Shown: positions 6,606 through 53,582 of the stretch, in pieces
Position numbering within the stretch: position 1 is the first letter of the stretch
How the letters are laid out: each line of letters begins with the position of its first letter
IMG/VR virus record: IMGVR_UViG_3300044946_000086
Span: 1-62,037 of that record
Length of the DNA stretch: 62,037 nucleotides
Direction: 5' to 3' (one strand)
Origin: a virus
Position numbers and translations under genes: made by a program
Notes under the pieces: model-generated
Databases searched by the model: none
Seen by the model: the letters and a program-made list of their open reading frames with translations, nothing else
Told to the model about the DNA's origin: nothing

Positions 6606-7312
6606 CCTTTTGAAAGTGCCGCGACGATTTCACGGCGTTTTTGGATTAAAAATTCCGTTGGCGACGTTGCGCGATCACCGCCGTCTGGGCCTTCGTTTAT
6701 TGGGTGACGGAGCCCACCAAGGCCGATGTGATCTAAATAACTTATTCGAGAGATAGCGCAGTGATTACCAAGTAGGTCTGGAATCTGCCAGTCAAATGCC
6801 GTGATCTGTCCGACAACAGGCAGAAGGATTTTAACGTGATTTCGGCTTAGAAGATAGCTGACGCCTGGAGCATACCTACGAATAATGACTTCTGATTGTG
6901 GATCGTCTATCCGTGTATTTCCAGCCAATCTTTCGTGCGCCTGCGTGTTGTAAAGCCCGATCAAAATATCGCCGTATTTTTCACGGAGATGAAGTGCATA
7001 TTCTCTCCATGAAATATCGTGTATCGTATCGTGATCCGTGAAATATAGTAGGTCGCAGTCTGACTCCCAAAATTCGTGCAACTGGATTCTGCGATTGGCT
7101 TCTATCCCAAGCGGGAGCCCAGACGGGGATGCCTCGATTGCCCTGTCAGCCCACTGACGAAGCCAATGCGTGTCATATTCAACAGAACCATCGTTCCTGC
7201 AAACAAACACGTCTTGGTCACCGACTGACGCACGAAGCGTCGGAAGGCATTGCTCGGCGATTTGACGCCGGTTATGACAGGATACCGCGATGTAGATGCG
7301 CTCTTGAATCAT
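6602..7312 (-). CDS. GT-A (family 2-like) glycosyltransferase
   Basis: This encodes 236 aa from ATG 7312 (MIQERI), chosen for its ATGA overlap with the upstream gene. The N terminus has the IAVSCHNR strand/loop, NDGS at 40-43 replaces the common DDGS of GT2 enzymes, and TDHD at 92-95 is the likely metal-binding DxD. Transfer of a sugar from a nucleotide donor is expected; the acceptor is unknown. It is one of four related enzymes in this cassette. Confidence 0.75.
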   Translation of the reverse strand: MIQERIYIAVSCHNRRQIAEQCLPTLRASVGDQDVFVCRNDGSVEYDTHWLRQWADRAIEASPSGLPLGIEANRRIQLHEFWESDCDLLYFTDHDTIHDISWREYALHLREKYGDILIGLYNTQAHERLAGNTRIDDPQSEVIIRRYAPGVSYLLSRNHVKILLPVVGQITAFDWQIPDLLGNHCAISRISYLDHIGLGGLRHPINEGPDGGDRATSPTEFLIQKRREIVAALSKG

Positions 7313-8004
7313 ACCCAATTCCTCAGTCCATCGGTTGCCGCTTCCGGGTTGCGCTCAAAGAAAAGTTTGCGGCCTTGCTCGTAGTTCTCAGGCGAGTTTT
7401 GCCTTTCGTAAGTCGCATCAAAAGGAACAGTCTTATTGTGGTAATGATGCTCGTGCTTGAACACCAAGTCTCGTGCATTGATTACATTGCAATTCCCGTC
7501 GCGTGAATCGCGGTAAGCCCTCCATGAAAATTCGTCATCTGAAAATACTGAGGTATAGCCCGGATGCAGGAACTCTCCTTGTTGGCAGTACCTTGATCTA
7601 TTGCAGATGGCCGTCACCAGCAAACCGTCTTTCCGGTAGCCATCTGACACGGCTAAAACCGTAGGCTTATAGAAGTCCATTCGACGCATAATCTGCAAAT
7701 CGAAACTTTCCGGTGGCTCAATGTCATCGCTGGCCTGAATCAGAATATGCCCCACGCTCCGCTTCGCCGCAGTATTCCATGCCGGTGCCGAGCCACGTCC
7801 TTCGTTAAAGCAGACGAACGCATGGTGGAACTTCGTCGGACCGAAAATCAGGTTTCGCCGCGTGTGCTCGTCTTCCTCGTCAACACAGAAGATGTATTCG
7901 ACTGCTGACGGCGCAGCGGCGCGAGCCTCCCACATTTTCATCGCGGCAATCGCCTTTTCAGGACGGCCACGGGTGGCGTGCAGAATTGAAAATGTCAGAT
8001 TCAT
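7309..8004 (-). CDS. GT-A (family 2-like) glycosyltransferase
   Basis: This encodes 231 aa from ATG 8004 (MNLTFS), overlapping the upstream stop by ATGA. It has the FSILHATRGRP first strand, a WNTAA segment typical of GT2 proteins and a DxD-like SDD at 92-94 followed by IEPPE. The fold assignment is reasonable; donor and acceptor are unknown. Confidence 0.75.
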   Translation of the reverse strand: MNLTFSILHATRGRPEKAIAAMKMWEARAAAPSAVEYIFCVDEEDEHTRRNLIFGPTKFHHAFVCFNEGRGSAPAWNTAAKRSVGHILIQASDDIEPPESFDLQIMRRMDFYKPTVLAVSDGYRKDGLLVTAICNRSRYCQQGEFLHPGYTSVFSDDEFSWRAYRDSRDGNCNVINARDLVFKHEHHYHNKTVPFDATYERQNSPENYEQGRKLFFERNPEAATDGLRNWV

Positions 8005-8729
8005 TCGACACACTCCAGTAGCAGTCGGCGGGCGATGTTATAGGCTGAGTCGTCTTTGTAGCCGTGAACAAGCACCGGGAATCTGCCGTCCGCATGACAG
8101 ACAGATCCTCGCATATCTTGCTCAGTAGCGTTGCGCGATTCAAAGCAGTTTTTAATCTGATGCGTCGGCCACCAGTTTTGATAGATGTCGGGCACGATTG
8201 AGCAGTCCCAAGCCAAATACTCATTAAACACGCCTTCGCTTAACACCTCGAAAATACTAGGCTTTAATATGCAGTTACCATTCAGGTGCCCGTGCTCGCC
8301 GCCAGACGGCCTCCATGCGCCCATCATCAGCACGCCATGAGGATGCGCTTGGTTCCATTCCTCGAGCAGTAGGTTTATCCAATTCGCGTGAACCGGAACG
8401 CAGTCAGGTTCGATTAGGATTAAAGCGTCTTTACGCGATACCTCGCCAGCCTTAACTCGGTTGAGCATCCAACGAAGAAGATCGAATGCCATGCCGTTCG
8501 GCCCAGCCGGCCACCCTGTCCACGGTGTCGAAGTATTGAACCTCGTCACCTGAAATCTATCCGCACAGTACCGCTCCGTCTCTTCGTCGTGATCACAATC
8601 GAACCGCGCACAGAACACGAGTTCAACGTCATCCCGTTTCACCGGCTCAATGTCCGTAATGAAGCGTGCCAGCCGCATCGCGGTGGCTTTGTCAGCTTCG
8701 TATAACTGGAGACAAATCACTGTTTTCAT
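8001..8729 (-). CDS. GT-A-like glycosyltransferase
   Basis: This encodes 242 aa. The central IEPDCVP motif (DxD-like EPDC at 107-110, followed by an aromatic WI) closely resembles EADAVP in the upstream two-domain enzyme, so the two are probably paralogous. The N-terminal CLQLYEADK strand and a C-terminal His/Gly-rich segment (VHGYKD) complete a small GT-A domain. Both ends overlap neighbours by ATGA. Confidence 0.7.
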   Translation of the reverse strand: MKTVICLQLYEADKATAMRLARFITDIEPVKRDDVELVFCARFDCDHDEETERYCADRFQVTRFNTSTPWTGWPAGPNGMAFDLLRWMLNRVKAGEVSRKDALILIEPDCVPVHANWINLLLEEWNQAHPHGVLMMGAWRPSGGEHGHLNGNCILKPSIFEVLSEGVFNEYLAWDCSIVPDIYQNWWPTHQIKNCFESRNATEQDMRGSVCHADGRFPVLVHGYKDDSAYNIARRLLLECVE

Positions 8730-8986
8730 TCGATTGTCATTCCCGGTTGTGTGCGCCTATGAATTTCAAGCCCGTCGTAAGTTGGAACGCTCGGGCCGAT
8801 GCAACTCACGCCTATCATACGCAAAATATCGTCCATCTCGTCTTGAAGTTGAAACCATTTTATATGCCCAAGGATGACACGACGCGGTTTATCACCAGTA
8901 GCCATCTCAAACTCTATCCGACCTTCATGGATACAGTCGGTGATAGAACGGTCTTGACCTCGCATGATTTTAATTACTGGTGTCAT
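8726..8986 (-). CDS. Hypothetical protein
   Basis: This encodes 86 aa starting at ATG 8986 (MTPVIKI), which overlaps the two-domain glycosyltransferase stop by ATGA; longer upstream starts would run into that gene. It is a soluble protein with beta-strand-like stretches and a central IKWFQLQDEMDD helix. No family is recognised. Its place among glycosyltransferases suggests an accessory role, which is only inference. Confidence 0.75.
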   Translation of the reverse strand: MTPVIKIMRGQDRSITDCIHEGRIEFEMATGDKPRRVILGHIKWFQLQDEMDDILRMIGVSCIGPSVPTYDGLEIHRRTQPGMTIE

Positions 8987-10629
8987 TTTGTGTAGTACGC
9001 CGGCACACGTTTGTTTAAAAAAGCATTCGCATCCGAAGCATACTGAGCGAACTTCGCGTGACTCCAAAATTCGACAATTCTGTTGCGATCTCTCCGGTAA
9101 ATATACTGCCATCCATCATTGCCGTCCAACGCGCATTCCTTGGCGTCCTGATGCCGGTCGTAATCGACGAAGTGATAGTCGAATCCGAAGTATCTGATTG
9201 CCACGGCTCCGAGCGTGTTGAACTCACAGAATGTCTGAGGAAACTCATTCTGCTGGGAAAATACAAAATCATCGAAGTTTTTTCCAGTATGCCTTTCGAT
9301 AAGCTGCCTCGTCTTGGCGAAGACCTCGCGGAGATAGACTTGAGGGTGACATACCATGCACTCGTAATCGGGCTTAAAGCCTACTGCCCGCTCCACGCAG
9401 CCCTGCCAATAAACACGGTTCGGGTTCTTGATGTCGGCATACCGCTCCCTAACCATCATCACCCGACCACCGCGAACGAAGTCCTGCGGGGTCGCCGTCT
9501 GCCAGAACATGCAGTCAGGGTCCATAATCAGGATGGCCTCGGCATTCGGACACCATTCGTCAGCCCTGCACTTCTGGATCATGTGGTGCAGAAATCCTTT
9601 GCCCGGAGCCTCGTCGAAAGTCTTGAGCACGGCATACCGCGAGACCCATGCGAATTGCTCTTTCTCAGCCGTCGGAACAACTACCGTTACCCCATGAAAT
9701 CGCCGTGCATACATTTCCACCGACTGAAGGCAGTTGCGCAGATAGTCCATATCGCGGGCAAAAGTCACGATCAGGATTTCCATGCCGGTGATCTGACGTT
9801 CTGGCGGTGGGCCAGCTTTGGCACCGTGCTGGAACTGTGGACCGCTGCCGTTGTGCCGGTCAGTCTCGTAGGTTGATTCGCAGAGAGCGGCGTCCAACGG
9901 AATTAAAGGCCATTCCCTTGCCTCACAAATTCTATCGATAAGTGAACCATCTTTACATTGATGGAAAAGTGCTGTTGATGGACGGATATTGTTATCCCAC
10001 CAAGTTTCGGTCATTGGAAGTTCTGGACGCCAGACTTGCTGGATCGTCTTAGCATTGTGCGCCTGCGGCACGATTTCATGGGCGCATTGAGAATCGAATC
10101 CCCAGCGAGGATCAGGCCCGGGAAGCAGGATCATTGACGGAGCGAACTTACGCCACTCAGGACTGTAAACTCCATTGCCAGTCATGTGATCGCGTTCACA
10201 CCGTATGATTTCACCCATGAACGGTTTTCCGCAGGCACGGTACTCGTCGCGGATTTCCTTGAACCAAGTTGGACGTGTAGGCACAGCGTCAGCCTCCAAC
10301 CATAGCATAGCTTGGCCGGGATGATTTTTTTCGACGTAATCGAGTGCGGCTTTGAAGACCTGATTTGCGACCCCGAAATATCCAGGCTTTTCATCGATAC
10401 CATCGGCCACGACAACGATGGCATTTGTGTCCAACGCTTCCCGCTGGCCGTCGGTAAGAGCAGGTGACGTTAGTACAATGACCGTTGCAATGTCCTTCGC
10501 GTCTTTAGTGGCATCGCCCAGCCGTTCCAACCACCGCAGCAGCTTCTTCGCTAAATTCCAATCGAAACGGGCGACCGGAATCACAACGACAATATCCAAT
10601 TCCGAGTTGTCTGTTTCTTGAGGGATCAT
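8983..10629 (-). CDS. Two-domain glycosyltransferase (tandem GT-A-like domains)
   Basis: This encodes 548 aa. Domain 1 (about 10-275) starts with VVVIPVARFDW and has an EAD motif at 112-114 followed by VPTRPTW. Domain 2 (about 283-548) starts with MEILIVTFARDM and has a DPDC metal motif around residue 370. The domain 2 layout resembles the DUF6492-like glycosyltransferases. A fused bifunctional enzyme could add two sugars in succession. It overlaps the MazG-like gene upstream and the small gene downstream by ATGA. Confidence 0.75.
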   Translation of the reverse strand: MIPQETDNSELDIVVVIPVARFDWNLAKKLLRWLERLGDATKDAKDIATVIVLTSPALTDGQREALDTNAIVVVADGIDEKPGYFGVANQVFKAALDYVEKNHPGQAMLWLEADAVPTRPTWFKEIRDEYRACGKPFMGEIIRCERDHMTGNGVYSPEWRKFAPSMILLPGPDPRWGFDSQCAHEIVPQAHNAKTIQQVWRPELPMTETWWDNNIRPSTALFHQCKDGSLIDRICEAREWPLIPLDAALCESTYETDRHNGSGPQFQHGAKAGPPPERQITGMEILIVTFARDMDYLRNCLQSVEMYARRFHGVTVVVPTAEKEQFAWVSRYAVLKTFDEAPGKGFLHHMIQKCRADEWCPNAEAILIMDPDCMFWQTATPQDFVRGGRVMMVRERYADIKNPNRVYWQGCVERAVGFKPDYECMVCHPQVYLREVFAKTRQLIERHTGKNFDDFVFSQQNEFPQTFCEFNTLGAVAIRYFGFDYHFVDYDRHQDAKECALDGNDGWQYIYRRDRNRIVEFWSHAKFAQYASDANAFLNKRVPAYYTK

Positions 10630-11051
10630 GCTTTGTTGTCTCCGTGCATGAATGGTCGTTTTTCGTTGTACGCCATCTTTTGAAGGATGACTTCGGCCAA
10701 CGGAAGTTCGTAGGCATTAGCGTAGTCCATGATGCGGATAATCGTATCAGCAAGCTCAACGACTTCCATGCTTCGGTTTGGCAGATGATCGTCCTTTAAG
10801 TCTTTGCGCAGGCCATGCACGCATTCCGATAATTCTTCGTGCATAAGCGCGATTCGACTCAGTTTGTGAATCACGCCATCAGGGTTATCGACAGCCCAAA
10901 ACCCATGATTAACTGAGTTCTGATGCGCCCGATAGCTCAACGAGGAAAATGCAGCGATGAATGATTCTTTCGCGTCTTGATATGCCGTTGCTCGTGCCTC
11001 TTCGACTTCTGAACGCGGTACGTCGGTTGGAAATTTATCGTCAGTATTCAT
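10626..11051 (-). CDS. MazG-like nucleotide pyrophosphohydrolase
   Basis: This encodes 141 aa. The all-alpha MazG metal site is visible as EELSE at 72-76 and ELAD at 99-102, followed by the conserved LAEVILQKMAYNEKRP segment. Family members hydrolyse (d)NTPs to monophosphates plus pyrophosphate. In phages they are linked to nucleotide-pool control or alarmone degradation. Here it could also act on sugar nucleotides, given its glycosyltransferase neighbours (inference). Confidence 0.85.
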   Translation of the reverse strand: MNTDDKFPTDVPRSEVEEARATAYQDAKESFIAAFSSLSYRAHQNSVNHGFWAVDNPDGVIHKLSRIALMHEELSECVHGLRKDLKDDHLPNRSMEVVELADTIIRIMDYANAYELPLAEVILQKMAYNEKRPFMHGDNKA

Positions 11052-11758
11052 TTTTTCGGCGTTGCTAAAATATCTCGTTGCGAAAGATGGGTGCCGTGTC
11101 CGGGCTCAAGCTCGTTCCATTCGTAACCAAGCCCTTCGATGGCCGGGCGAACATTCTTCTCAGTCAGTTCATTTCGAGCCAAGCACCGATGGTTGATTTC
11201 GATGACCAAGAATGGATGAAACTTTTTAATGATTTCAGACGCTCCGTAAAGCACCAATAGCTCTAACCCTTCCACATCCAAATGGATGAGATCGCACCGC
11301 GATAAACAGTGAAGATAATCATCAAGTATATCCGTCTCAACCTGAATACCGCCGTCTTCGATTTCACTGTCAACGTATGACTCTCCGGCATTTTTTTGCA
11401 ACTGAAACCAAGATGGCCAATCTGTTGATGAGAGTGCTTTATTAAAACATATCACATTTCTCCACGGCGCGAAGTTCAGCGCAAGGGCCTTGAAGGAAAG
11501 CGGGTGAGGCTCGAAGGCTAGAACCATGCCTGTAGGGCCGACGATCTTCGCGTAAGTCAACGTGTGATCGCCGATGCACGCACCAGCGTCGATCACCGTT
11601 CCACCAACCGGAATAAACCGCTTGAATTTGTCGATCTCCTGTTCAGCGATGTCCAACCGTTCATTTTTTTCCACCCAACGGCTCATGTGGTCGTCATCCT
11701 TCAGCACATAGATGCCTTGCGGCGTGCGAAGCAGTCCTTCTGGAATTGGATCATTCAT
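11048..11758 (-). CDS. FkbM-family methyltransferase
   Basis: This encodes 236 aa from ATG 11758 (MNDPIP; ATGA overlap). The SAM-binding motif VIDAGACIGDHT is at 55-66, followed by FEPHP. The FkbM-typical HLDVEGLELLVLYGA segment is in the C-terminal half. Family enzymes often O-methylate sugars of surface polysaccharides or antibiotics. Next to four glycosyltransferases it probably caps or decorates the same glycan. Confidence 0.88.
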   Translation of the reverse strand: MNDPIPEGLLRTPQGIYVLKDDDHMSRWVEKNERLDIAEQEIDKFKRFIPVGGTVIDAGACIGDHTLTYAKIVGPTGMVLAFEPHPLSFKALALNFAPWRNVICFNKALSSTDWPSWFQLQKNAGESYVDSEIEDGGIQVETDILDDYLHCLSRCDLIHLDVEGLELLVLYGASEIIKKFHPFLVIEINHRCLARNELTEKNVRPAIEGLGYEWNELEPGHGTHLSQRDILATPKK

Positions 11759-12084
11759 GGCGTTATCCCCAAACAATCTTTTAACTGCTTTAGCTCCTCG
11801 ATGACTTCTTGTTTTTCACGATACCTGCGTTGATATTCCGAATATAGCATGGCATTAGTTTTGCGGCTAGTTTCTTCATTGTCCTGCATCCTACTTACGC
11901 ACGAATTTAATATCCACTTGCGTTCCTCTTTGGCCGCACGAATCCAGTCGTGGAGATAATGGTCAGAGTTGTCCTGACAAAATTCTTGAGCGACATGCTC
12001 TAAGATTTCTTCGATTGTGCATCGCTTAATTTCCTCGCGGGTGAAATGAGCCCACGGTTTAGGCGGTGGAGTTTTGGTGCTCAT
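11755..12084 (-). CDS. Hypothetical charged helical protein
   Basis: This encodes 109 aa from ATG 12084 (MSTKTPPP), overlapping the HTH gene stop by ATGA. A Pro-rich N terminus is followed by long charged helices (EEIKRC, YREKQEVIEELKQLKD), probably a coiled coil. Function is not recognised. It is the second gene of the coupled cassette and could be a partner of the HTH protein. Confidence 0.75.
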   Translation of the reverse strand: MSTKTPPPKPWAHFTREEIKRCTIEEILEHVAQEFCQDNSDHYLHDWIRAAKEERKWILNSCVSRMQDNEETSRKTNAMLYSEYQRRYREKQEVIEELKQLKDCLGITP

Positions 12085-12305
12085 TTGATTAAAAACAACC
12101 GTGCCGCGATGGCCGGTGACCAGTCGAGGTGATGGCACAGCCGAAAATAAGCCGGTAGCTGAATCCAGTTTCTCCCGCATTCGATGTTGTAGAGCGTCTT
12201 GGCATGGACACCGATGACCTTAGCCAAATCGTCAACCGTGACCTTCAGCGACTCACGCCGGTCGCGAATCAACTGCCCTAAAAGTTTTTGTCGCGCTTTG
12301 TCCAA
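12081..12305 (-). CDS. Helix-turn-helix (XRE-type) regulator
   Basis: This encodes 74 aa. Residues 22-46 (TVDDLAKVIGVHAKTLYNIE) form a clear lambda-repressor-like HTH, with a short C-terminal helix and no extra domain. It heads the coupled minus-strand cassette. The 17-bp palindrome at 12333-12349 lies 28 bases upstream of its start, between it and the divergent gene at 12392, so autoregulation is likely (inference). Confidence 0.85.
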   Translation of the reverse strand: MDKARQKLLGQLIRDRRESLKVTVDDLAKVIGVHAKTLYNIECGRNWIQLPAYFRLCHHLDWSPAIAARLFLIK

Positions 12306-37920: not shown

Positions 37921-37957
37921 GAGCCGGGGTGCGGGGGCATCCCGGCTCTTTGCTTTT
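37921..37957. terminator. Strong rho-independent terminator (convergent)
   Basis: GAGCCGGGGTG pairs with CATCCCGGCTC (one G-T wobble) around CGGGGG, an 11-bp stem followed by TTTGCTTTT. It ends the long plus-strand operon. The stop codon of the opposing 37956 gene touches the tail, so it may also act on minus-strand transcripts. Confidence 0.85.
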
Positions 37958-38237
37958 ATGGAATAGTCGCTATCGATTTACCGTGAGGCTGACCGCCCTG
38001 CTCCCGAACCAGCCATGCCACATCCGCCTGCATCTGGTGCTGCGCTTCTTTAAGCTCAAAAATCTGCGTTTGGAAAGACTCCAGCTTCGCCTGCAAATTC
38101 GTGGCCCACACTCCGCAGGTAAAAGCCCCGCTGAGGCCGGCAATGACGACAGCCCAAGACATCCACGCCCCCTTGCCTTTGATGCGGAATGGCACGCCGG
38201 TATTGTCATCTTGGCGCTGCCAATGTTTCGGGGGCAT
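37956..38237 (-). CDS. Rz-like or holin-like membrane protein
   Basis: This encodes 93 aa. One transmembrane helix (about 25-44, MSWAVVIAGLSGAFTCGVW) is followed by a coiled-coil segment (about 48-78, QAKLESFQTQIFELKEAQHQM). This is the layout of inner-membrane spanin (Rz) proteins or single-pass holins. It is the last gene of the lysis-like cluster. Confidence 0.65.
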   Translation of the reverse strand: MPPKHWQRQDDNTGVPFRIKGKGAWMSWAVVIAGLSGAFTCGVWATNLQAKLESFQTQIFELKEAQHQMQADVAWLVREQGGQPHGKSIATIP

Positions 38238-38246
38238 AGTATTATT

Positions 38247-38864
38247 TTAGACTAACGCTTGGTTGATCGCCGCCTCGTAGTTTGCGAAGATGTGGTGAAG
38301 GCGCACGCTCAAAATCGGCACATCGGACGGCGCAGGCAGATGGATCGTTTGTGGGACGTCAGGATACATCGGTGCAGCCAGCGGCACAATATCACCATCC
38401 ACCCAGTAGGCTGCGGCAATCTGTGCCTTGGCCAATACGTCCGCGCCCACCAGCTTCGGACAGGCGTAGAGTATGGCTGGGAGGCTGAGCATGGCTGAAA
38501 GCGTGATCGCGAGCGGACCACCCCGGCTATGTCCAGTCACGCGGGCAATAGAATAGGAGTCTAATGGTTTCCCTGATACCCACCGCCAGCTCTTGGCCGT
38601 CTGCCAGATGCCGCGAGCCATGACCCCCAGCGGGGTGTCGATCTGAAAGAAGTCGAAGTCCAAAATCCATTCAGCGGCGTCACGCGTGCCCGCAATAGCT
38701 AGAGTCAATGACCCGTCTGGCTGGCCCACCAACGCGCCGTAGGGCATCGGCCCGTCAATATCGTCGCCAAAGAGGGTGTCCACCAGTCCCGAAACCGTTC
38801 CGGCCACAGGAAGGGCATAGGCCGCTTCCTGAGCTGGAAAGAAAGGTCTCGGGTCGAAGAGCAT
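38247..38864 (-). CDS. Class 3 lipase-like alpha/beta hydrolase
   Basis: This encodes 205 aa. The nucleophile elbow is GHSRG (Ser 113). An AIAGTRDAAEWILDFDF segment matches the substrate-side strand of class 3 lipases (the usual FRGT...W...D). DGDIV (Asp 156/158) and LHHIF (His 190/191) complete the Ser-Asp-His triad. It probably cleaves acyl esters of host lipids. It lies in the lysis-like cluster, where no peptidoglycan hydrolase was recognised, so a role in lysis or outer-envelope disruption is an attractive inference. There is no signal peptide. Confidence 0.8.
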   Translation of the reverse strand: MLFDPRPFFPAQEAAYALPVAGTVSGLVDTLFGDDIDGPMPYGALVGQPDGSLTLAIAGTRDAAEWILDFDFFQIDTPLGVMARGIWQTAKSWRWVSGKPLDSYSIARVTGHSRGGPLAITLSAMLSLPAILYACPKLVGADVLAKAQIAAAYWVDGDIVPLAAPMYPDVPQTIHLPAPSDVPILSVRLHHIFANYEAAINQALV

Positions 38865-38866
38865 TA

Positions 38867-39346
38867 TTAGGGAACCAGCGAGGGATTAGCTTGCGCGACA
38901 GCGATGGCGGCATTGATGCCGGCCACAATGTCCTTCAGCTGGCTCCACTCTGCGCCTTGGATGAGCGTTGGAGAGGCTCCGGCGTTCACCTTGGCCACAT
39001 CACCGTTGATAGCGTCGATCACGCTCACGACGGTCAAATCAACCTTGGCGTTTACCAAGTGTGCGACGTAACCGGCGAGAATGGAGTTGTCGGCGGGCGT
39101 GAGCGCCACACCAGAAGCCACGCCCGGCAAGTCTGCGGCGAGCTGCTGAAGCTGAGGAACGGTCGCCAGCTTGTTTTGGATGGCGTAGGATGCGCCGATC
39201 TCGGCCCCGTTGGTCAGGGCATCTGCGGACACGACAGCGGTGATCTGTGCCCCGGTGCAGCCAGAAAGGATGACAACGAGTGCTAGCAGTGGAAGCAAAA
39301 GCGCAGCGTAAAGAGCCGTGCCGATATTGTAACGGATGTTTTTCAT
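38867..39346 (-). CDS. Secreted lipoprotein
   Basis: This encodes 159 aa. A long hydrophobic signal with lipobox ILSGC puts the lipidated Cys at residue 30. The mature part is Ala/Val-rich and helical. It could be the outer-membrane spanin (Rz1-like) or a superinfection-exclusion lipoprotein, but it is long for Rz1. It overlaps the holin-like gene by ATGA. Confidence 0.75.
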   Translation of the reverse strand: MKNIRYNIGTALYAALLLPLLALVVILSGCTGAQITAVVSADALTNGAEIGASYAIQNKLATVPQLQQLAADLPGVASGVALTPADNSILAGYVAHLVNAKVDLTVVSVIDAINGDVAKVNAGASPTLIQGAEWSQLKDIVAGINAAIAVAQANPSLVP

Positions 39347-39540
39347 GGTTGTTTTGTGGGAGGAGTTGGCGGAGGTGTCGAATCTTTAAGAAGCTGATTT
39401 CCTACGTTGACGAGAAGCGCGATCACGATGCCCACCCAGGCGGGGACGTGGTCGTTTGCGGCTAACTGCGGGATGGCGGCCTGCGCCATACCAAGGATGG
39501 CCACTGATTCTGCGATGGCGTTGCGGATTTTTGGGTTCAT
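39343..39540 (-). CDS. Holin-like small membrane protein
   Basis: This encodes 65 aa with hydrophobic segments at about 8-26 and 34-47 (AWVGIVIALLVNVG), a short loop and a Pro-rich tail. Size and topology fit class II/III holins. It heads the lysis-like cluster, overlapping the lipoprotein start. Confidence 0.65.
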   Translation of the reverse strand: MNPKIRNAIAESVAILGMAQAAIPQLAANDHVPAWVGIVIALLVNVGNQLLKDSTPPPTPPTKQP

Positions 39541-39585
39541 ATCTATGATTTGGTTTTCGGTCTCAAAAAAGCGATTTGTTCTACT

Positions 39586-41475
39586 TTAGTCAGCGAACCA
39601 GGTCCATGTTGGCGGGGCAGAGTAAGTCAGTGTAATAGACGATCCAACCTTCAACCTGAATCCCCCTGATGTCAGCCCGGTTGCGGTGCCACTCACTTTC
39701 ACGATAGTCACTGTGCCCCCCGTCAGGTAAACTGTCACATCAAACGGAAATGGGTTAACGAGGGTCACAGTTGTGGCGGGCACTGATGGCGCAACTAACA
39801 CACCGAAAGGATTAATTCCAATGCAGTCGCGAATGACGACGGTAGGGCCATAAGTGGAAAGGACGGATTGGTTGTTTAAAGGGGTTCCAGAACCAGAGCA
39901 ATCGAGATTATTTACGACAACACTATTGGGAAATGCAGCCGTTCCAAGGGTCAGGCCCTTCGTTGTTGTTGCTGCCCCAACATTTATTTTCACTCTTCCC
40001 GGTGAACTAGCCGCATCATTTTGCAGGAGGTATCCGTACTGCCCGATGTCTGCCAAGCAGTTATTGAACGAGATCAAGTCTATGTTGCAGGTGGCGCCCA
40101 AGTGGAATGCTGCACCGCCTGTCGCGCCGGCGATACCGCGCACATTAGAGAACTCGACATCATACCCCGCACCGTTCAGTAAAACCCCGTCGCCTGTGGC
40201 TCCGTTTACGCCACCGGCAACCCACCCGGTATTGAACACGATCCGGTTACAAACTGCCCCGCCAGTGGCATTGAACACAATGCCATTATTCATCTGATCG
40301 ACAACGAAGTTTGAAAAATAGTAGTCGCTACAAGCTCCACCCGCCGTGGGCTGAAGGCTCATTCCGGTGTCGAAAGAATTAACCAGGAAGTTTGAAAAAA
40401 CAACGGTGTCTTGGACCACGCTAATAGGGAAACGAATACCAATCGACCCCGTGACAACGGGATTTGACCCTACAAGCGCGAATCCGTTTCCGTAAATCAA
40501 AGATGTGGAAGTTTGGAGATCGAGCCCGATGCTCGCTCCAGCCACGGTGATATTCGTATTATTACCAAGGAAATAATGCAGCGCAGACGTTCCGGTCAGC
40601 CCAACGCCATTCCATGAGGTGCGTATGTTTACGTTGCCGGCCACGAATGATTCCGTTCCCCCGTTGATGTTAACTACGTAGCCCGATGAACGCACGCCTG
40701 AGTCAGTTAGGCTAATATTTGTGACCCCCTGCTGCCCTCCCGCAGCAGTAAGCTTGATGCAGTCACCCGTGGTGCCGGTGAATTTTATCGTTCCTCCACC
40801 ATAACCTGAAACGACCTGATTTGACTGCGTCAAAAGGATCGGGCCGCTGGCTGTCTGGTTATAAAGGAAAGTGCCAAGAGGGAAATTAATCGAGCCCCCA
40901 GGTGTAAGTGAATTTGCGTAGGCGACGAGATTCAAAATCGCCGCAGAGTCATCGGTAGAGTTGTCGCCCCGACAGCCAAACCAGTAGGCGTTGACCGCTC
41001 CCGAGTAAGAAAGAATCCACCTTCCAGATCCCGCGTTTGGCGCGATAATTGTCCCGCCATTGTCCGTGGAGCTACTCGCCGAATTGTAGACGTAGGTGCG
41101 CGTGCCTGCGGCATCGCCTGCGGAATAGTAGCCAAGGACGTTCTCCGCATACCCCGTAGAAATACCACTCACAGGCAGTGCCTTCAATGCAGCAATCGTC
41201 GAACATGATGGCATCAAGATACCCATTGCCGGAAGGGTTACGCCGCCGTTAAGATCGATTGTACCAGCACTGAAGTTCCATATTCCTGTTCCATTATCAG
41301 TTCCGTTCATCACCTCAATTCCGTTCATCGCAAATGTCTGAGCTGATGGAATGCTAATTTGTCCTGTCAGTGCGTTCGTTCCATCGCTCTTTTTCTGGAC
41401 ATTGGTATATACGGTCTGCGCTATGCATGAAGCGGACAATAACAATACCTGTAGAAATAAAATAATGCGTTTCAT
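39586..41475 (-). CDS. Beta-helix tailspike/fibre protein with signal peptide
   Basis: This encodes 629 aa. The N terminus is a signal peptide (MKRIILFLQVLLLSASCIAQ). Near residue 170 the NAYWFGCRGDNSTDDS motif and the following PLGTF block are the usual start of a pectate-lyase-like right-handed beta-helix, as in phage tailspikes. Gly/Asn-rich strands follow to the end. It probably binds or cuts a surface polysaccharide. It is one of four neighbours with export signals. Confidence 0.8.
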   Translation of the reverse strand: MKRIILFLQVLLLSASCIAQTVYTNVQKKSDGTNALTGQISIPSAQTFAMNGIEVMNGTDNGTGIWNFSAGTIDLNGGVTLPAMGILMPSCSTIAALKALPVSGISTGYAENVLGYYSAGDAAGTRTYVYNSASSSTDNGGTIIAPNAGSGRWILSYSGAVNAYWFGCRGDNSTDDSAAILNLVAYANSLTPGGSINFPLGTFLYNQTASGPILLTQSNQVVSGYGGGTIKFTGTTGDCIKLTAAGGQQGVTNISLTDSGVRSSGYVVNINGGTESFVAGNVNIRTSWNGVGLTGTSALHYFLGNNTNITVAGASIGLDLQTSTSLIYGNGFALVGSNPVVTGSIGIRFPISVVQDTVVFSNFLVNSFDTGMSLQPTAGGACSDYYFSNFVVDQMNNGIVFNATGGAVCNRIVFNTGWVAGGVNGATGDGVLLNGAGYDVEFSNVRGIAGATGGAAFHLGATCNIDLISFNNCLADIGQYGYLLQNDAASSPGRVKINVGAATTTKGLTLGTAAFPNSVVVNNLDCSGSGTPLNNQSVLSTYGPTVVIRDCIGINPFGVLVAPSVPATTVTLVNPFPFDVTVYLTGGTVTIVKVSGTATGLTSGGFRLKVGSSITLTYSAPPTWTWFAD

Positions 41476-41484
41476 TGGTAAATT

Positions 41485-41889
41485 TTAGGCTGGTACTTGA
41501 GCGCGAAGCGGCTGCCAGACAGATGAAGCATTGAAGTAAACTTCAAATGTCGCGGCAGCACTTATTCCGTCTGTGTTGTACGAGAAAAGTAGAGGGCCAC
41601 CTATCGTGCCAGAAGTAATGTTTATTGTTATTCCAGCTGTTGCCGGAAGTTCAGCGCGGATCACGCATCGATCACCTGCGGTGCGATTGATGGTATCTAC
41701 AAAAACGATGCGCGTACTAGCAGTACCACCAAACGTGATGTCTTCAGTATGAAGTCCTGAACCCGGAGAGACCTCAGAGTTTCCGCCGTTATTGGTCTGT
41801 GAATTAAAGGAGGTTTCCATAATCGGCGGTGGAAATGGTGATGGCCCCGGAGGCGGATTGTAAACGGCGGGGCCGGATCGGGTTTTCAT
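41485..41889 (-). CDS. Hypothetical fibre-associated protein
   Basis: This encodes 134 aa with a Pro-rich N terminus (SGPAVYNPPPGPSPFPPPI) and then beta strands (ITINITSGTIGGPLLFSY). It has no signal peptide, unlike the fibre genes on both sides. The layout resembles the small virion protein at 45609. It may be a fibre cap or collar component. Confidence 0.65.
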   Translation of the reverse strand: MKTRSGPAVYNPPPGPSPFPPPIMETSFNSQTNNGGNSEVSPGSGLHTEDITFGGTASTRIVFVDTINRTAGDRCVIRAELPATAGITINITSGTIGGPLLFSYNTDGISAAATFEVYFNASSVWQPLRAQVPA

Positions 41890-41891
41890 GT

Positions 41892-43445
41892 TTAGTTCCC
41901 ATTAGATGTTCCGTTTCCGAACTTGAAGCAATTCAAAATAGCGGCAGCTACGGGTGCGGCGGCGTACTGCAACGCCCCGATGTCCCATGCGGCGGAAGGT
42001 GGGCGAGTCACGCCAGCGAAGTCCATCGTGAAGAAGGACGATAGATTAACCCCTGCGGAGATCGCGGCACTGGTCGGCTGCGGGACATAACTACCGTTGA
42101 GATTCGGGTTTCCGTTGGTTCCATGTGTATCGAACCCGTCGGACTGCCACTGCGCAAACGTCTGCGGGTTTGAACCGCCGCTGGACGACCACGAATACGC
42201 CTGCCCGGAGTTCAGGTTATAGCCCAGATTGTAATCCGCCGTGGCCGTGTAAAGGTTAACGTGAAAAAACGCGATGGCCGTCCCATCCCCAGAGAATAGA
42301 TTATTCTTTAGTAACACCGTCCCAGAGGTTCCGCTAAGAGCATCTATATCTACGCCAATTCCTGAAGAATTATAACCAATTGAGGTGTTATTGTAGTAAT
42401 TCAAAGTCGTGCCTGTACCATACTTGTTGTCAAAATATATGTTACCGTTGTTAGGATTTCCGGTTGAATCCGCTAAAAATATGTTGTTATAGATCGTGAA
42501 AGTTCCGAGAAGATCGCCTGAAAGGAAGATATGAGCAGTAGCATTGGTTCCAGCACCGGGGCCTATCTGGTTATCATAGATCGTCGCCCCGGTGATGCCC
42601 CCGCCAGATTCAGCGTATCCATAAAATCCGTTGTGATGGTAAAGGTTCGATACCGAATCATCCCAATTAGAGAAATTATAAAATAGGTTATGGTGGATTG
42701 TTGCCCCGGTGAGGTTCTGTCCAGAGGTTCCTGCGTCCCCGAACGAAGATCCCCAGTTGCAATTATAGGCCGTGCAATAAGACACTTCCCAAGTCGTGCA
42801 CGCGCTCCCTCGGTAGGCGGCGGCGACACCAGTATTCATGTCATGGAACACGCAATTTGTGACCTTTAGGTTGGTCAGGTTTCCTGAACTGTTTAGCACA
42901 TAAATACCGCTGCTGCTGGAAGCACCTGCGCTTTCATCAGTCGAAGAATTTCTGACGTATAGGTTTCGGATTACCAACCCTTGGATCGTCAGGTTGTTGC
43001 AGTCGGTTGCAGCAATTGCATTCGTAACTGCGGTATTGGCCAACCCCGTCCCATTAGCCGTGTTTTGGATGTACCCGTTGGTCGTTCCAGCCGCGCCCGG
43101 GCCTCCGATAGTACCGGTCGCACCACCATCAATCGTGATGTAGTTATTATTTGCGAGAGTGAAAGCGGAGTTCCAAACCGTCGTGCTCATGGACGCACCT
43201 GATGCGAAGAGGTAGGTAATCGGGTTGCCGGATGCTCCGCTACCATTGACCGTGATGCCACTGGTGATCGCCCCATTCAGGCTCACTGTATCACCGGCAG
43301 CTGGCATATGTCCATTGAGGGTTGTGATGCTCGCGGCATTGCCTATGGAGCTGCCATTGCCAGACCCAGCACCGGATTGGGTGACGTAGTACGTGGCAGC
43401 GGTTAGGCGCACCGTCAAAATAAGGCTTAAAATAAAATACCTCAT
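41892..43445 (-). CDS. Right-handed beta-helix fibre protein with signal peptide
   Basis: This encodes 517 aa. Signal peptide MRYFILSLILTVRLTAA is followed by a long Asn/Gly/Thr-rich parallel beta-helix (repeated short strands such as NNYITIDGGA, GLVIRNLYVRN, KVTNCVFHDM). This fold is typical of surface-polysaccharide lyases and tailspikes. ATGA-overlaps the LamG-like gene upstream. Confidence 0.75.
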   Translation of the reverse strand: MRYFILSLILTVRLTAATYYVTQSGAGSGNGSSIGNAASITTLNGHMPAAGDTVSLNGAITSGITVNGSGASGNPITYLFASGASMSTTVWNSAFTLANNNYITIDGGATGTIGGPGAAGTTNGYIQNTANGTGLANTAVTNAIAATDCNNLTIQGLVIRNLYVRNSSTDESAGASSSSGIYVLNSSGNLTNLKVTNCVFHDMNTGVAAAYRGSACTTWEVSYCTAYNCNWGSSFGDAGTSGQNLTGATIHHNLFYNFSNWDDSVSNLYHHNGFYGYAESGGGITGATIYDNQIGPGAGTNATAHIFLSGDLLGTFTIYNNIFLADSTGNPNNGNIYFDNKYGTGTTLNYYNNTSIGYNSSGIGVDIDALSGTSGTVLLKNNLFSGDGTAIAFFHVNLYTATADYNLGYNLNSGQAYSWSSSGGSNPQTFAQWQSDGFDTHGTNGNPNLNGSYVPQPTSAAISAGVNLSSFFTMDFAGVTRPPSAAWDIGALQYAAAPVAAAILNCFKFGNGTSNGN

Positions 43446-44230
43446 TGGAAATTTGTATAAGCGTATCCTGCTCCGCCGTTGTAGAGAGTCGCGATACTGG
43501 TAGTGCCGGTTAATGGCAATGCCCGACCAACCCAGTACCCTACTTGGCCAATTGAGCCATTGTAGGATGCAGTCCCAGTAGCATCCTGAAACACTTCAAA
43601 GTTACCGATTCCGGAGAATAATGTCGTGCTCCATGCCGTAGTCGCGAAAGCGCCGCCATCAAAACTGATCTTTATATTGGATCCGTCCCACTCGGCCACA
43701 ATCAAATGAAAAGTGGTCGTATCTGTAAATGCTGTGGAAGCTGTAACGGATGTACTGGTTGTTCCATTTGCACTTACCTGCAACACTGCCTTAGAAGACG
43801 GGGCATCCCAATAAATAAGCCATTCGATAGAAGTAGGATTGCCTCCCTTTTCTGCAAAAGTAGGATAGGCAGCTTGTGTCAAGCTGGCAGCTTTAGTCCA
43901 AAAAGCTACTGTGAAACTATTGGAACCGGGGCTGAATGAGCCTACGCTAGCCAATGTAAAATTATTACCCGGAGCTCCGTTGCTCGTTCTACAATTTGTT
44001 ACTATGCCAGCGGACGAACCAATCGTTCCATTCAGTGTCATATTGTGCGCAGCGAATATGTCGGTTGCGCCAGACCCCGCCGAATCGTCCATGTTGTAAA
44101 AAGCCACCAAGTTCGTCTTGAAATTGTTGGATGCAGCCGTTGTATACGCCGTCAGCAAGCATTGCTGCGCCGCTCCACCAAAGGCCAGAGAAGCGAAAAA
44201 TAGACCTGCGAAAAATATCAGTTTTTTCAT
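43442..44230 (-). CDS. LamG/concanavalin-like lectin protein with signal peptide
   Basis: This encodes 262 aa. Signal peptide MKKLIFFAGLFFASLAFGG is followed by a lectin-type jelly roll: LVAFYNMDDSAGSGATDIF, FTVAFWTKA, FHLIVAEWDGSNIKISFDG and GYWVGRALP are the canonical LamG/LamGL strands. It is a likely glycan-binding tail or surface protein. Confidence 0.8.
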   Translation of the reverse strand: MKKLIFFAGLFFASLAFGGAAQQCLLTAYTTAASNNFKTNLVAFYNMDDSAGSGATDIFAAHNMTLNGTIGSSAGIVTNCRTSNGAPGNNFTLASVGSFSPGSNSFTVAFWTKAASLTQAAYPTFAEKGGNPTSIEWLIYWDAPSSKAVLQVSANGTTSTSVTASTAFTDTTTFHLIVAEWDGSNIKISFDGGAFATTAWSTTLFSGIGNFEVFQDATGTASYNGSIGQVGYWVGRALPLTGTTSIATLYNGGAGYAYTNFQ

Positions 44231-44234
44231 GAGA

Positions 44235-45608
44235 TCAATTCATTGAGATGAACCAGCGCGTGCTCGCGACCTTGACCGCCGTGGCGGTGTGGCCGGCCAG
44301 TAGTGTTACCGATCCCGTCGTGCCCGCAGGAGACAGCACCAGCGTGTCTGACGTGATGGCAATCGTCACCGTGCCCGCGCTCGTATCGTTGTAGAACGAG
44401 AGTGAAGTGCCAATAGGTGCCGCGACGTTCGCGTTGCTGTCGATCGTCCACGTCCTCGCCGTCGTGTCTGCACTGGGATGGTAGATGATGTCGCCTTGGT
44501 CGGTAAGCAACGTCGTATAGGCCGCCGACTGCGAGTTGACGTGGATGTGGGGATATTGGTAAGTGGGATTGGCCGAACCGTTTCCAGTAAGCACGGTGTC
44601 CGCTGCACCAGCAGCTGTCACTTGGGGAACGGCTCCCGCGCCGCCACCCACCACTACGCCGTACTGAGTCAGGACACCCGATGAAGCGAGCGTCCCTGAT
44701 GCGGTGTAGGCGAGGACGCCACCAGATGTGCCGGAGGTAAGACCAGTTCCGCCGGCCGCTACAGTCAAAGGTGAGGCAAAGATGTCGTCCGAGTAAAACC
44801 AGATGCCGTTAACATACTCGAAATATAGCTTGTGGTCGCCGGATGGAGCCGGGGTGATAAGCGTGATCGTTGCGCCGCTGCCGCCGAATCGCTGCACGTT
44901 GCCCGAAGTCGTGAAAGTGGAAGTGCCGTTGCAAGCCAATGCGTATAACGTGAAATTGTTCCCCGAGGCCGGCGAACCTGGCAACGTGATCGAAGTCGTC
45001 GTGCCATTGGTGAACGGCGTAAAGTAGAGCTTACTGCCCACCGAGGGTGCGTTGGTTGCGCCTGTGGTGCCTGCGGAGGCTGAGATGGTGATGGAGGTTG
45101 CGGTGGCACCTCCAAGAGCCGGAGTTACAAGCGTAGGGGACGTGGCGAAGACGAGTGCTCCCGTGCCCGTGGCACCAGTAGAAGTAACCCCCTCGATGGT
45201 TTGATGGCCTGTGAAGGTGTTCGCAGCGTCAGTTCGTGCGAGGGTGGCATTCGTTGATGGGAAGGTCATCGTCGTGCTGTCAGTGCCGGCCAGCGTAATC
45301 GAATTGTTGAATGTGAGTGTCTTTGCTGCGGCACCTGTCAGCGTATAGGTCCCGGTAGTGAACGTGTTGCCGTTTACGGTAGTGGGAGTGATCGCACCGA
45401 GCGTCAGCGTAATAGCTGGCGTGGTTGTAGCTGTCGCAACGCTTCCTGAAACGCCGTTGTTTGTAACCACTGAAACGCTTGTGACCGTGCCTGAGCCACC
45501 ACCACCACCAGGATTATAGGTATTCCCGCCGCCGTTTGATGGATATTGCGCCTGAGCAATCGAAACTCCTGCGATAAGAACTGAGATTAGATAGCGGAGG
45601 AGTTTCAT
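44235..45608 (-). CDS. Repeat-rich tail-fibre protein with signal peptide
   Basis: This encodes 457 aa. Signal peptide MKLLRYLISVLIAGVSIAQA is followed by a Gly-rich linker (about 25-40). Then come Thr/Gly/Ala beta repeats typical of phage tail fibres (TLARTDAANTFTGHQTI, GTGALVFATSPTLVTPALG). The C terminus (about 360-457) looks like a fibre head domain. It starts directly after the stop of 45609. Confidence 0.8.
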   Translation of the reverse strand: MKLLRYLISVLIAGVSIAQAQYPSNGGGNTYNPGGGGGSGTVTSVSVVTNNGVSGSVATATTTPAITLTLGAITPTTVNGNTFTTGTYTLTGAAAKTLTFNNSITLAGTDSTTMTFPSTNATLARTDAANTFTGHQTIEGVTSTGATGTGALVFATSPTLVTPALGGATATSITISASAGTTGATNAPSVGSKLYFTPFTNGTTTSITLPGSPASGNNFTLYALACNGTSTFTTSGNVQRFGGSGATITLITPAPSGDHKLYFEYVNGIWFYSDDIFASPLTVAAGGTGLTSGTSGGVLAYTASGTLASSGVLTQYGVVVGGGAGAVPQVTAAGAADTVLTGNGSANPTYQYPHIHVNSQSAAYTTLLTDQGDIIYHPSADTTARTWTIDSNANVAAPIGTSLSFYNDTSAGTVTIAITSDTLVLSPAGTTGSVTLLAGHTATAVKVASTRWFISMN

Positions 45609-45917
45609 TTACTTGTATTTCCTCCAGATGAATTGCACGTTGGTGCCGGTCGCTGATTTATCATTTCTCCGAACCTGAATCTCCATTGCATTTGCCACAA
45701 CATTGATGACGATACCTGAGTTTGCGCCAATCGTAACAAATTGGCCGGGCGCGTCGGTGCTCGCACAAGCAATGTCAAGTGCCACTCCGGGATTGATGAT
45801 CGTGACTTCATCTGCCGGGATATTAGGCAGTGAGACGAAGGCAGAACCGGGTGAGCCGGTGTTGACCGAATTATTGGCTCCCCATGAGGAGGTTGGGTTG
45901 AAAAAGTTTTGAGGCAT
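45609..45917 (-). CDS. Small virion protein
   Basis: This encodes 102 aa, beta-rich (FVSLPNIPADEVTIIN, GANSGIVINVVANAMEIQVRRND). It lies between the tail connectors and the fibres, where short-tailed phages keep small tail or decoration proteins. Exact role unknown. Confidence 0.68.
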   Translation of the reverse strand: MPQNFFNPTSSWGANNSVNTGSPGSAFVSLPNIPADEVTIINPGVALDIACASTDAPGQFVTIGANSGIVINVVANAMEIQVRRNDKSATGTNVQFIWRKYK

Positions 45918-50764: not shown

Positions 50765-52381
50765 GTGTCTCCCGACCTGCAAAATCGAAGTCCTCAAGTT
50801 GAACGCCTTCCTGATCTTCGTCTTCGGGTAACAAGGATTTACGATGTCCTTAACAATGTTCCGAAGACACCGGCAGCGATTTTGTCGGCGTGCTGGTTGC
50901 CTTGGGCAACGGCGGACGCCTCCTATGCTAACTGCCTACTGATAAAGCAGGATGTGAGCGGTCAGGTCGGCCCGTTTGAAGAACCATGCAAGGAGCCGCC
51001 TATTCTCACTCGGGTTTACGAACAGATTTCACCGACCGCCGAGACGCAGGTGGGTAATTGCGGATTAGAAATCGGCCCGCAAAACGGTTTAACGGTAATT
51101 ATTGCCGAGTTCCTTCAGTTTTCCGGCCAGACCCCAACCTACGGCGTTCCTGGCACGACAACCGCCCCGGCACCGTTCGCCTCGTATCTAATGAAGACCG
51201 AGGAGCGGACGGATGACGGGACGCTCCAGAGGATCAAGCGCACTTACATCAACAGCGGACAGATTTCTTTGGACACCGAATATCTGAGGTCAGTCGATAC
51301 CGGAACGACAGGCGTTACCAAGACGACGATCAAATATCTCAGCGAGATTACGGTTAATTCAAATCCGATAACGCAACCCGGTGGAACCGCCTTACTTCAG
51401 AGCAGTTATGATAATGCTGATGGATACAGAATTTGGACGATGGTTTATGCCAGTGGAACTGGCACCGTCGAATCGTCCATAGAATACAAGAACAATGGGC
51501 TGCTCGTAATTTACAGCATAACGGCGCTGACAACTCCACCCACTGCACCGTCACCGACCATCGGAGGCACCGTCGTCCTGATTCGTTCATCGCATCGCAA
51601 TAGCCCGCGACTCGAGGAAGGAGCCATTGTTTATGATTATGTCTGGGCTGAAGGGTTGGGGTTGATAGAAAGTTCAATAATTGTTCGTGAAGATGGGTTA
51701 CGCGATCAGACATACGTTTCGCTTGGAACAAAACAGACTCCGACAGGCGCCATAGTCCGCGACGAATCCGAGCAGATAGATGGTGTCACAAAATACACGG
51801 TCACAGCCCGTCAATCTGCGGCTGGAGGAGCCCCGTCAGGTTACTCATTGAGCTATCAGCGATACCATCAGTTCAGGTATCCTGGTCGTCTGAAAGCGTA
51901 CATATACACTGCGGCTAGCGGTAAAAGATTTCTGGATGTTTTCAAATCACCCCCGGTTGACGTTGACATCCTCGCAACCGTCACAATCACCTACCAGACG
52001 ACAAACACAATTTCCCTTGTTGGAGGGTATCCATTTTGGCAGCCTACCGATGGCGCCACCATACAAGGCGATTGGGTTGGGCTCAATAACTATCAAGCTA
52101 ATTTGGTTGAAAGCTGGCCGGGATATAGGGCTGTAAATTCTAGCGCATCGATAACCTCTTCCGCATCTCAGCCGAACGACTCCGTTTTTGGTAATCTGGC
52201 GTATGGAGGAACAGCCGCCTCTATTTCCATTTCTGGTGGCCCGGCTAGTCCGGACAATAATAATTACACTATCGGCGTGCCTATGTTAGAATACGTTTTT
52301 ACTGACACTTCTGGCACAAAATACTATCGCCAGACACTTGTAACAGCCACCATACCAGCCCAGCCTGCATTACCAGTATGA
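50765..52381 (+). CDS. Beta-repeat protein of reverse-oriented island
   Basis: This encodes 538 aa from GTG 50765, the first possible start after an in-frame TAA at 50750. Residues of about 190-360 contain roughly three related beta units with an SSIxxxxxGL pattern (GTVESSIEYKNNGLLVI; LGLIESSIIVREDGLRD). Ser/Thr/Gly content is high. It looks like a structural or surface protein, but is not assignable. It is coupled to the next gene by ATGA. Confidence 0.7.
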   Translation: MSPDLQNRSPQVERLPDLRLRVTRIYDVLNNVPKTPAAILSACWLPWATADASYANCLLIKQDVSGQVGPFEEPCKEPPILTRVYEQISPTAETQVGNCGLEIGPQNGLTVIIAEFLQFSGQTPTYGVPGTTTAPAPFASYLMKTEERTDDGTLQRIKRTYINSGQISLDTEYLRSVDTGTTGVTKTTIKYLSEITVNSNPITQPGGTALLQSSYDNADGYRIWTMVYASGTGTVESSIEYKNNGLLVIYSITALTTPPTAPSPTIGGTVVLIRSSHRNSPRLEEGAIVYDYVWAEGLGLIESSIIVREDGLRDQTYVSLGTKQTPTGAIVRDESEQIDGVTKYTVTARQSAAGGAPSGYSLSYQRYHQFRYPGRLKAYIYTAASGKRFLDVFKSPPVDVDILATVTITYQTTNTISLVGGYPFWQPTDGATIQGDWVGLNNYQANLVESWPGYRAVNSSASITSSASQPNDSVFGNLAYGGTAASISISGGPASPDNNNYTIGVPMLEYVFTDTSGTKYYRQTLVTATIPAQPALPV

Positions 52382-52629
52382 ACAATCCTTTACACGGCTT
52401 TCAAGTTGGCCCGCTTGACTCGGCTCATCATTCTACGCCAACCAGTGTTTTCGGCTTCGCATCAAGGCCACCTGAACAAAATCGCGTTGACCGAACAGCG
52501 ATGTCTCCTAATAGTGAAGGGGATAGGCGTTGGATGCCTCAATTAATAAGCGCGTCTGGTTCAGTTACGGTCGGGGCTGGAACATCCACGATGTCTGGAA
52601 CAGCGAACATTACCTCATTTTTCTATTAA
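52378..52629 (+). CDS. Hypothetical protein
   Basis: This encodes 83 aa, polar with a Gly/Ser/Thr-rich C terminus (SASGSVTVGAGTSTMSGT). ATGA coupling upstream and 8 bases to the next start. It is the middle gene of the plus-strand island. Confidence 0.62.
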   Translation: MNNPLHGFQVGPLDSAHHSTPTSVFGFASRPPEQNRVDRTAMSPNSEGDRRWMPQLISASGSVTVGAGTSTMSGTANITSFFY

Positions 52630-52637
52630 TAAAACCA

Positions 52638-53582
52638 ATGAACGCAGCCTCAAAAGGTCGCCGTGGACCGCACAAATTATTCCGAGGTAATCAATCTCAG
52701 TTTACCAATGGAGAGATGGCGACAAATTCACCCGACCAAATGATTCGAAATCCGACAGGATATGATCCAAACGATAGCACAAAGTTGATTTACGGGGATA
52801 ATCAGCAGCATCCTACTTATGGCGCGGATGGTGAAATCAATTCGGAATACACACGGAGCATGGGCACAAAGTTTGGAAGTGCAGCCGGTCAGCCGGGTGA
52901 GATTACCGGATTAACTGCTGCTGTTCCGGGTTCTTCGCAAGCCCTGCCACTTGCTTCCTATAACGGTCCAGGAGCCACTTCAGCCTTTGCCCCATCCGGT
53001 CAATCTCAGTCTGACATCATCAATCGGATAAACCGTGGCCTCCCTCCACCAAGTTCATTCCAGAAATCAACAAGTTTTGCCATAGGAGGCAGTCTAGGAC
53101 CGGGCGGCGTGCCTATTCCCGGTTCATCACAAATTGAATCGACCAACCCTCTGACTGGTGGCAAGAGTCCTGCGCCGACAGGCAAGACGCAGACGGTTTC
53201 TTCGACGCCAGCCACGCCAAACTCTGGCGGCGTCATCACTCGAGGTAATGGAGACTTTGCACAGTTGAATCCTGATGCTGGTTACAAAGGCCCGAAGGCC
53301 ACGCTGGGCGCATCTGACACGATAGATCATGGCAGGGCGCTAGGATTTAGTTCTAGGGGTGGCGCAATGCCACAGAGTACCGACACAAACGCCCCATCTT
53401 TTACTGGCGGGACTGGTGCATTTCAGCGTGCTTTCAGCAACCCCGGCTCAGCCCAAATTTATCACTCATTTGTGCAAAACCTTTTTGGAAGTCAGAATGG
53501 CGGTGGTGGAGGCGGCGCTGCACCTTCGACCGGCATGACCCGGACTCCTAGCGGCGCAGGCCAAGGCGCATTAAGCCCCTGA
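52638..53582 (+). CDS. Low-complexity Gly/Ser/Pro-rich protein
   Basis: This encodes 314 aa from ATG 52638. It is almost entirely Gly, Ser, Pro, Gln and Thr, without clear domains. Basic start (KGRRGPHKLF), FQNLFGSQ-like end with a Gly-run. It could be a flexible virion appendage. Its stop overlaps the opposing gene by 12 bases. Confidence 0.65.
   Translation: MNAASKGRRGPHKLFRGNQSQFTNGEMATNSPDQMIRNPTGYDPNDSTKLIYGDNQQHPTYGADGEINSEYTRSMGTKFGSAAGQPGEITGLTAAVPGSSQALPLASYNGPGATSAFAPSGQSQSDIINRINRGLPPPSSFQKSTSFAIGGSLGPGGVPIPGSSQIESTNPLTGGKSPAPTGKTQTVSSTPATPNSGGVITRGNGDFAQLNPDAGYKGPKATLGASDTIDHGRALGFSSRGGAMPQSTDTNAPSFTGGTGAFQRAFSNPGSAQIYHSFVQNLFGSQNGGGGGGAAPSTGMTRTPSGAGQGALSP

Follow-up and report, generated by a model that had tools for sequence, protein, structure and literature searches.

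Tailed phages are thought to be built wholly inside the cell, and export signals on their fibre proteins are therefore odd. The locus described here raises the question of whether such signals are real and, if so, what the exported proteins would do. It lies in a viral record of 62,037 bases (the window, i.e., the whole stretch of DNA analysed), which encodes an SU10-type portal, a phrog_334 major capsid protein and an internal virion protein, pointing to a podovirus-like phage. An earlier note on this DNA had described four consecutive fibre or adhesin genes, all beginning with Sec signal peptides.

Organization of the fibre block

The four open reading frames (ORFs) exist as claimed on the minus strand (Table 1; genes are named by their lower coordinate). 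The fibre block directly follows genes 46814 and 45930, with intergenic gaps or overlaps of only a few bases. The four genes are not consecutive, since the signal-less 41485 interrupts the series between 41892 and 39586. The c-region motifs had been listed in reverse order: CIAQ belongs to 39586 and SIAQA to 44235. The description of the neighbours 41485 and 45609 as devoid of signals was confirmed.

Table 1. Fibre block of the window and adjoining lipoprotein gene.
Feature	Position	Strand	Remarks
102-aa protein without signal, start of fibre block	45609..45917	-	position of relatives' small protein A
Tail-fibre protein, 457 aa	44235..45608	-	Sec signal score 6.87; C-terminal ~100 aa form the tip domain
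LamG (concanavalin-like lectin) protein, 262 aa	43442..44230	-	Sec signal score 5.78; Pfam PF13385
Fibre cassette (end of 44235, 43442, most of 41892)	41913..44569	-	97.0% identity to L018/L019
Probable parallel beta-helix protein, 517 aa	41892..43445	-	weak Sec signal, score 3.77; choice-of-anchor-Q residues 455-494
134-aa protein without signal	41485..41889	-	shares adapter B's N-terminal motif over its first ~13 residues (MKTRSGPAVYNPPPG)
Tailspike/depolymerase-like protein, 629 aa	39586..41475	-	Sec signal score 5.68; phrog_4250 match
Lipoprotein, 159 aa, adjoining fibre block	38867..39346	-	lipobox LSGC

Beyond the fibres, a possible lysis or envelope block spans 37956-39540 on the minus strand. 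Besides lipoprotein 38867 it contains a gene resembling lipases/esterases (38247, phrog_21992), and its short ORFs 37956 and 39343 have hydrophobic segments. Elsewhere, two plus-strand ORFs (50765-52381 and 52530-53582) sit within the minus-strand structural module, and a run of HNH, acetyltransferase, glycosyltransferase and methyltransferase-like genes was recognised by eye at 5476-12180 (minus strand). A search for the host by scanning genome contigs with the capsid protein gave no relative, and the major capsid, LamG and beta-helix proteins had no match in INPHARED.

Signal regions

Signal peptides were called with a home-made, rule-based scorer (threshold 4.5), calibrated on 153 E. coli K-12 genes from four 50-kb stretches, with the exported set assigned from general knowledge. 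Of the 29 exported genes it recovered 28; it also passed 15 of the remaining 124, and these 15 are nearly all integral membrane proteins. Three of the window's proteins score clearly above the threshold and fit a type I Sec layout, with a positive n-region, a hydrophobic h-region and small residues at -3 and -1: 44235 (MKLLRYLISVLIAGVSIAQA followed by QYPS, with predicted cleavage after AQA at residue 20), 43442 (MKKLIFFAGLFFASLAFG followed by GAAQ) and 39586 (MKRIILFLQVLLLSASCIA followed by QTVY). The claim of Sec signals on all four proteins thus stands for these three and only weakly for 41892 (MRYFILSLILTVRLTAA followed by TYYV), whose low score arises because an Arg sits right before the c-region; its homologue in the related contig L162 has a strong signal (6.52).

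Scores of 3.0 or higher were found in only 7 of 80 non-overlapping ORFs of the window, and six of the seven, the lipoprotein among them, lie within 38867-45608 (hypergeometric probability about 6e-7, for a region picked post hoc). The mature parts hold no stretch resembling a membrane anchor, the maximum Kyte-Doolittle mean over 19 residues being 0.80-1.56. A Shine-Dalgarno-like GGAGG stands ahead of the ATG of 44235. Given the clustering, this Shine-Dalgarno-like site and the recurrence in relatives, we regard chance or start-codon error as an unlikely source of the signals. We also considered 39586 as a lipoprotein because of the Cys in LSASC; the residue at -3 is Ser, outside the lipobox [LVI][ASTVI][GAS]C, and the scorer calls the signal type I.

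Identity of the signal-bearing proteins

The tip domain of 44235 has homologues in 46 IMG/VR loci and about 300 in a profile scan, which establishes its homology to tailed-phage fibres. In 43442, the LamG match (E 9e-9) is above the Pfam cut-off. No recognised adapter, i.e., N-terminal tail-attachment domain, follows the signal in either protein, and one is present in the relatives L003, L007, L164, L171 and L042. The beta-helix protein 41892 scores 29.9 bits against NCBIfam NF041518 (choice-of-anchor Q; cut-off 25), with about 23 residues after this domain, and no sorting family matched at E <= 1. Its structure model, of low confidence (mean pLDDT 52), bears a weak resemblance to polysaccharide lyases. 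The match of 39586 to phrog_4250, an EPS depolymerase family, has an E value of 1e-8; residues ~93-193 match annotated tailspikes, and a Pfam pectate-lyase-like match is weak and below cut-off. Sequence searches of solved structures with 39586 and 41892 found nothing. The small 45609 is 38% identical to its counterpart in L008.

The cassette aligns with positions 8593-11246 of contig L018 over 2658 columns (2.66 kb), and with L019 likewise. L018 encodes a siphovirus tape-measure protein, and in this siphovirus the cassette sits between head-tail and tail-tube genes. In 43442, 99% identical between the two, only two bases differ; 41892 diverges more towards its 3′ end. At 97% identity to a siphovirus contig, the cassette must have moved recently between unrelated phages. 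The L018 contig carries a further signal-bearing fibre-like ORF.

Signal-bearing fibres in related phages

The arrangement was sought among 86 relatives of the capsid protein, and signal-bearing fibre genes recur there. Signals on large ORFs were absent upstream of the capsid gene (0/208) and present in 17 of 190 downstream, or 11 when six calls judged doubtful by inspection are set aside (L001, an internal start; L206, L218 and L225-L227, membrane-type); these contigs may be incomplete, and related ones are not independent. In a capsid-protein tree, a clade supported 100/100 holds a signal-bearing fibre in 8 of its 15 rows, the window included, and one further row outside the clade also has one. 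The well-supported branches require the fibre signal to have been gained or lost six times or more. Four signal-bearing fibres occur in L162: the main locus has three, and the fourth, on the opposite strand, scores 4.2, just under the threshold. The signal-bearing gene takes the same locus as the signal-less fibre of sister phages, where no other fibre is evident. In L164, the signal-bearing fibre matches a PHROG tail-protein family and is accompanied by a separate gene for the adapter protein B; L165 and L166, nearly identical to L164 in capsid protein, have a wholly different fibre locus in which B is fused to a signal-less fibre.

This protein B (88-96 aa, MKTRPGxAxYNPP..., without signal) lies ahead of the fibre in relatives with the fibre signal as well as in those lacking it. 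The fused copy and the stand-alone B of L171 are 64.7% identical (E 2e-35), and the fusion suggests that B and fibre work together. In a structure model of B the N-terminal motif is disordered, and the protein has a small folded part; a PDB search with the model gave no match. Gene 41485 was tried as a B family member and rejected: only about the first 13-17 residues align, i.e., the N-terminal motif out of a ~90-aa family, and the B profile does not detect it.

In L003, L007, L164 and L171, an adapter comes after the signal, and in the signal-less L006 and L170 this adapter starts at or near the initiator Met. In L042, the alignment of the post-signal sequence to a signal-less, annotated podovirus tail fibre begins at the first residue of the former and residue 2 of the latter. 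In both of these unrelated adapter families, the predicted mature N-terminus thus coincides with the start of the signal-less homologues or lies no more than about five residues from it. The cleavage site can be placed only to within a few residues: in L003, L007 and L171 the scorer prefers a site two to five residues before the choice by eye. Because the signal stands directly before an N-terminus of the signal-less type, cleavage would recreate an ordinary fibre N-terminus. A profile search with the N-terminal adapter recovered known members only. Signals ahead of homologous adapters differ in more than half of their residues, yet the n-h-c layout is preserved in every one. When neutral decay was simulated, roughly 10-20% of the copies free of stops retained their score at 50% identity or less, the set having been chosen by score.

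Among 81 distinct complete tip-domain fibres (window excluded), five carry a signal, which is unusual but recurrent. Named genomes with the tip domain have signal-less versions, and those organisms are not shown as hosts. Four of the five signal-bearing tip-domain fibres, all from other phages, are Cys-rich when compared with 90 signal-less ones (p 0.003); they are mutually related and so are not independent cases. A Cys pair at two positions of the domain occurs in L024 and L039 and in none of 92 signal-less domains. These findings hint at an oxidising compartment as the place where the Cys-rich fibres fold. In the window's clade, several signal-bearing fibres are nearly free of cysteine, and we discarded disulfides as a general reason for export since only some signal-bearing fibres are Cys-rich.

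Two further observations were made in the relatives. G001, G005 and L001 have large Ser/Thr-rich ORFs (660-773 aa, MWTWETT... or MWSYEQT...) that run opposite to the structural genes. Those tested matched no family, and such a signal-less ORF might be another tail protein, perhaps the true receptor-binding protein. Small signal-bearing or lipoprotein genes regularly trail the fibres (L003 18023-18448, L007 17626-18078, L012 15222, L016 15809). Spanins or other envelope proteins are possible identities; a family search with the L007 gene found none.

Discussion

Export-like signals on fibre and adhesin proteins had been called unexpected in the earlier note, and recurrence in the clade, placement before fibre N-terminal domains and the Cys excess uphold this. 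It is very probable, in our judgement, that the export signals on genuine phage fibre proteins are real.

The best reading, which we hold tentatively and from sequence comparison, is that these are genuine tail fibres or adhesins that would be exported by Sec and join tails at lysis. A cleavable Sec signal would have been added ahead of an ordinary fibre N-terminus, and signal-bearing fibres would be made late in infection along with the tail genes. They would cross the inner membrane, be trimmed by signal peptidase and either fold in the periplasm or arrive at the cell surface; tails with the signal-less adapter would assemble in the cytoplasm. Lysis would mix the compartments, and since fibre and tail would meet only then, fibre attachment would be the last, post-lysis step of assembly. 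P22 spikes and T4 fibres can reportedly attach to otherwise complete particles in vitro, which makes late joining physically plausible. Before lysis, an exported fibre could in addition act at the surface of the host; 41892 might deviate from this scheme by remaining outside the virion. The sequences directly show signal-like N-termini and where these sit relative to the fibre adapters, the gene order, the fusion of adapter and fibre in signal-less relatives and repeated gain or loss; from there we infer export and cleavage, disulfide formation and virion joining at lysis. With greater reserve, we propose as a possibility that a group of tailed phages assembles its virions in two compartments, with heads and adapter-bearing tails made in the cytoplasm and receptor-binding fibres brought to the periplasm by Sec, the parts being joined only at lysis and the signal acting as a rapidly gained and lost evolutionary switch.

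Several findings weigh against the best reading, namely the lack of a recognised adapter in 44235 and 43442, the resemblance of 41892 to secreted host-type proteins, the mobile cassette, the Cys-poor fibres of the clade and the Ser/Thr-rich ORF. Most of them would suit the main, if somewhat doubtful, alternative, in which the exported proteins never enter the virion and are surface or secreted effectors evolved from fibres, proposed to mask receptors, exclude superinfection, or depolymerize capsule or matrix and thereby free progeny. Mobility between unrelated phages, signals with no recognised adapter behind them and another possible signal-less tail protein in relatives are all compatible with such effectors. 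So is 41892, with its weak lyase-like model and a domain typical of secreted proteins; as the sole protein with such a domain, it is the best fit for the secreted depolymerase suggested in the earlier note. However, a signal-bearing gene replaces a signal-less fibre at the same sister locus, with no other evident fibre, and the mature protein keeps a fibre adapter in L003, L007, L164, L171 and L042. Of the mechanisms offered earlier, the data therefore favour exported virion fibres over purely secreted effectors, without deciding between them.

The same adapters, being fibre rather than host domains, make it improbable that recombination with host genes for secreted proteins left the signals behind as fossils or passengers of little effect. 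Frequent gain and loss, the low share of signals among tip-domain fibres (5/81) and the resemblance of 41892 to a host-type secreted protein would agree with such an origin, but diverged signals before homologous adapters all keep their n-h-c layout, and the neutral simulation argues mildly against fossils. It is very unlikely that the hydrophobic N-termini are uncleaved membrane anchors, or virion-internal segments, for instance for docking to a tail protein or insertion into the target membrane. The scorer does pass N-terminal membrane anchors as well (15 of 124 non-exported E. coli genes), and the Arg right before the c-region of 41892 would suit an anchor; however, the n-h-c layout is clear, with AxA-like sites, a fibre N-terminus often lies directly behind the segment, some signal-bearing fibres have a Cys excess, and homologous fibres without the segment exist (L006, L170). 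Exported virion fibres remain our preferred explanation.

Our search of the open-access literature, in a limited library, found no report of Sec signals on tailed-phage fibres. Ordinary podovirus fibres and tailspikes (e.g., UOF81047.1 of MW202722, L247) likewise have fibre N-terminal, tip, tailspike-like and LamG domains and a late position after the tail genes, but they start directly with the adapter, without the Sec-type signal that comes first here. The beta-helix proteins of NF041518, secreted by bacteria, resemble 41892 in reaching the family cut-off and in a signal-like start; unlike them, 41892 lies in a phage fibre block, has no recognised sorting tail and is common to a siphovirus. 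The filamentous-phage coat proteins pIII and pVIII are virion proteins made with cleavable signal peptides, as proposed here, but they are unrelated to the window's proteins, and filamentous virions assemble in the membrane whereas tailed phages do so in the cytoplasm. Spanins, superinfection-exclusion lipoproteins and SAR endolysins are envelope-directed phage proteins that use the host Sec system; they are small lysis or exclusion proteins, whereas those of the window are fibres and tailspikes, with a lipoprotein adjoining.

Signal-bearing fibre genes should not be thrown out by annotators as host contamination, and natural pairs with the signal on or off are at hand (L003/L006, L180/L170, L164/L165). 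If our reading is true, fibre attachment would be a post-lysis event in some tailed phages, or fibres would double as exported effectors; either case would change views of superinfection, of assembly and of adsorption to debris, and might account for disulfides or other periplasmic modifications on fibres.
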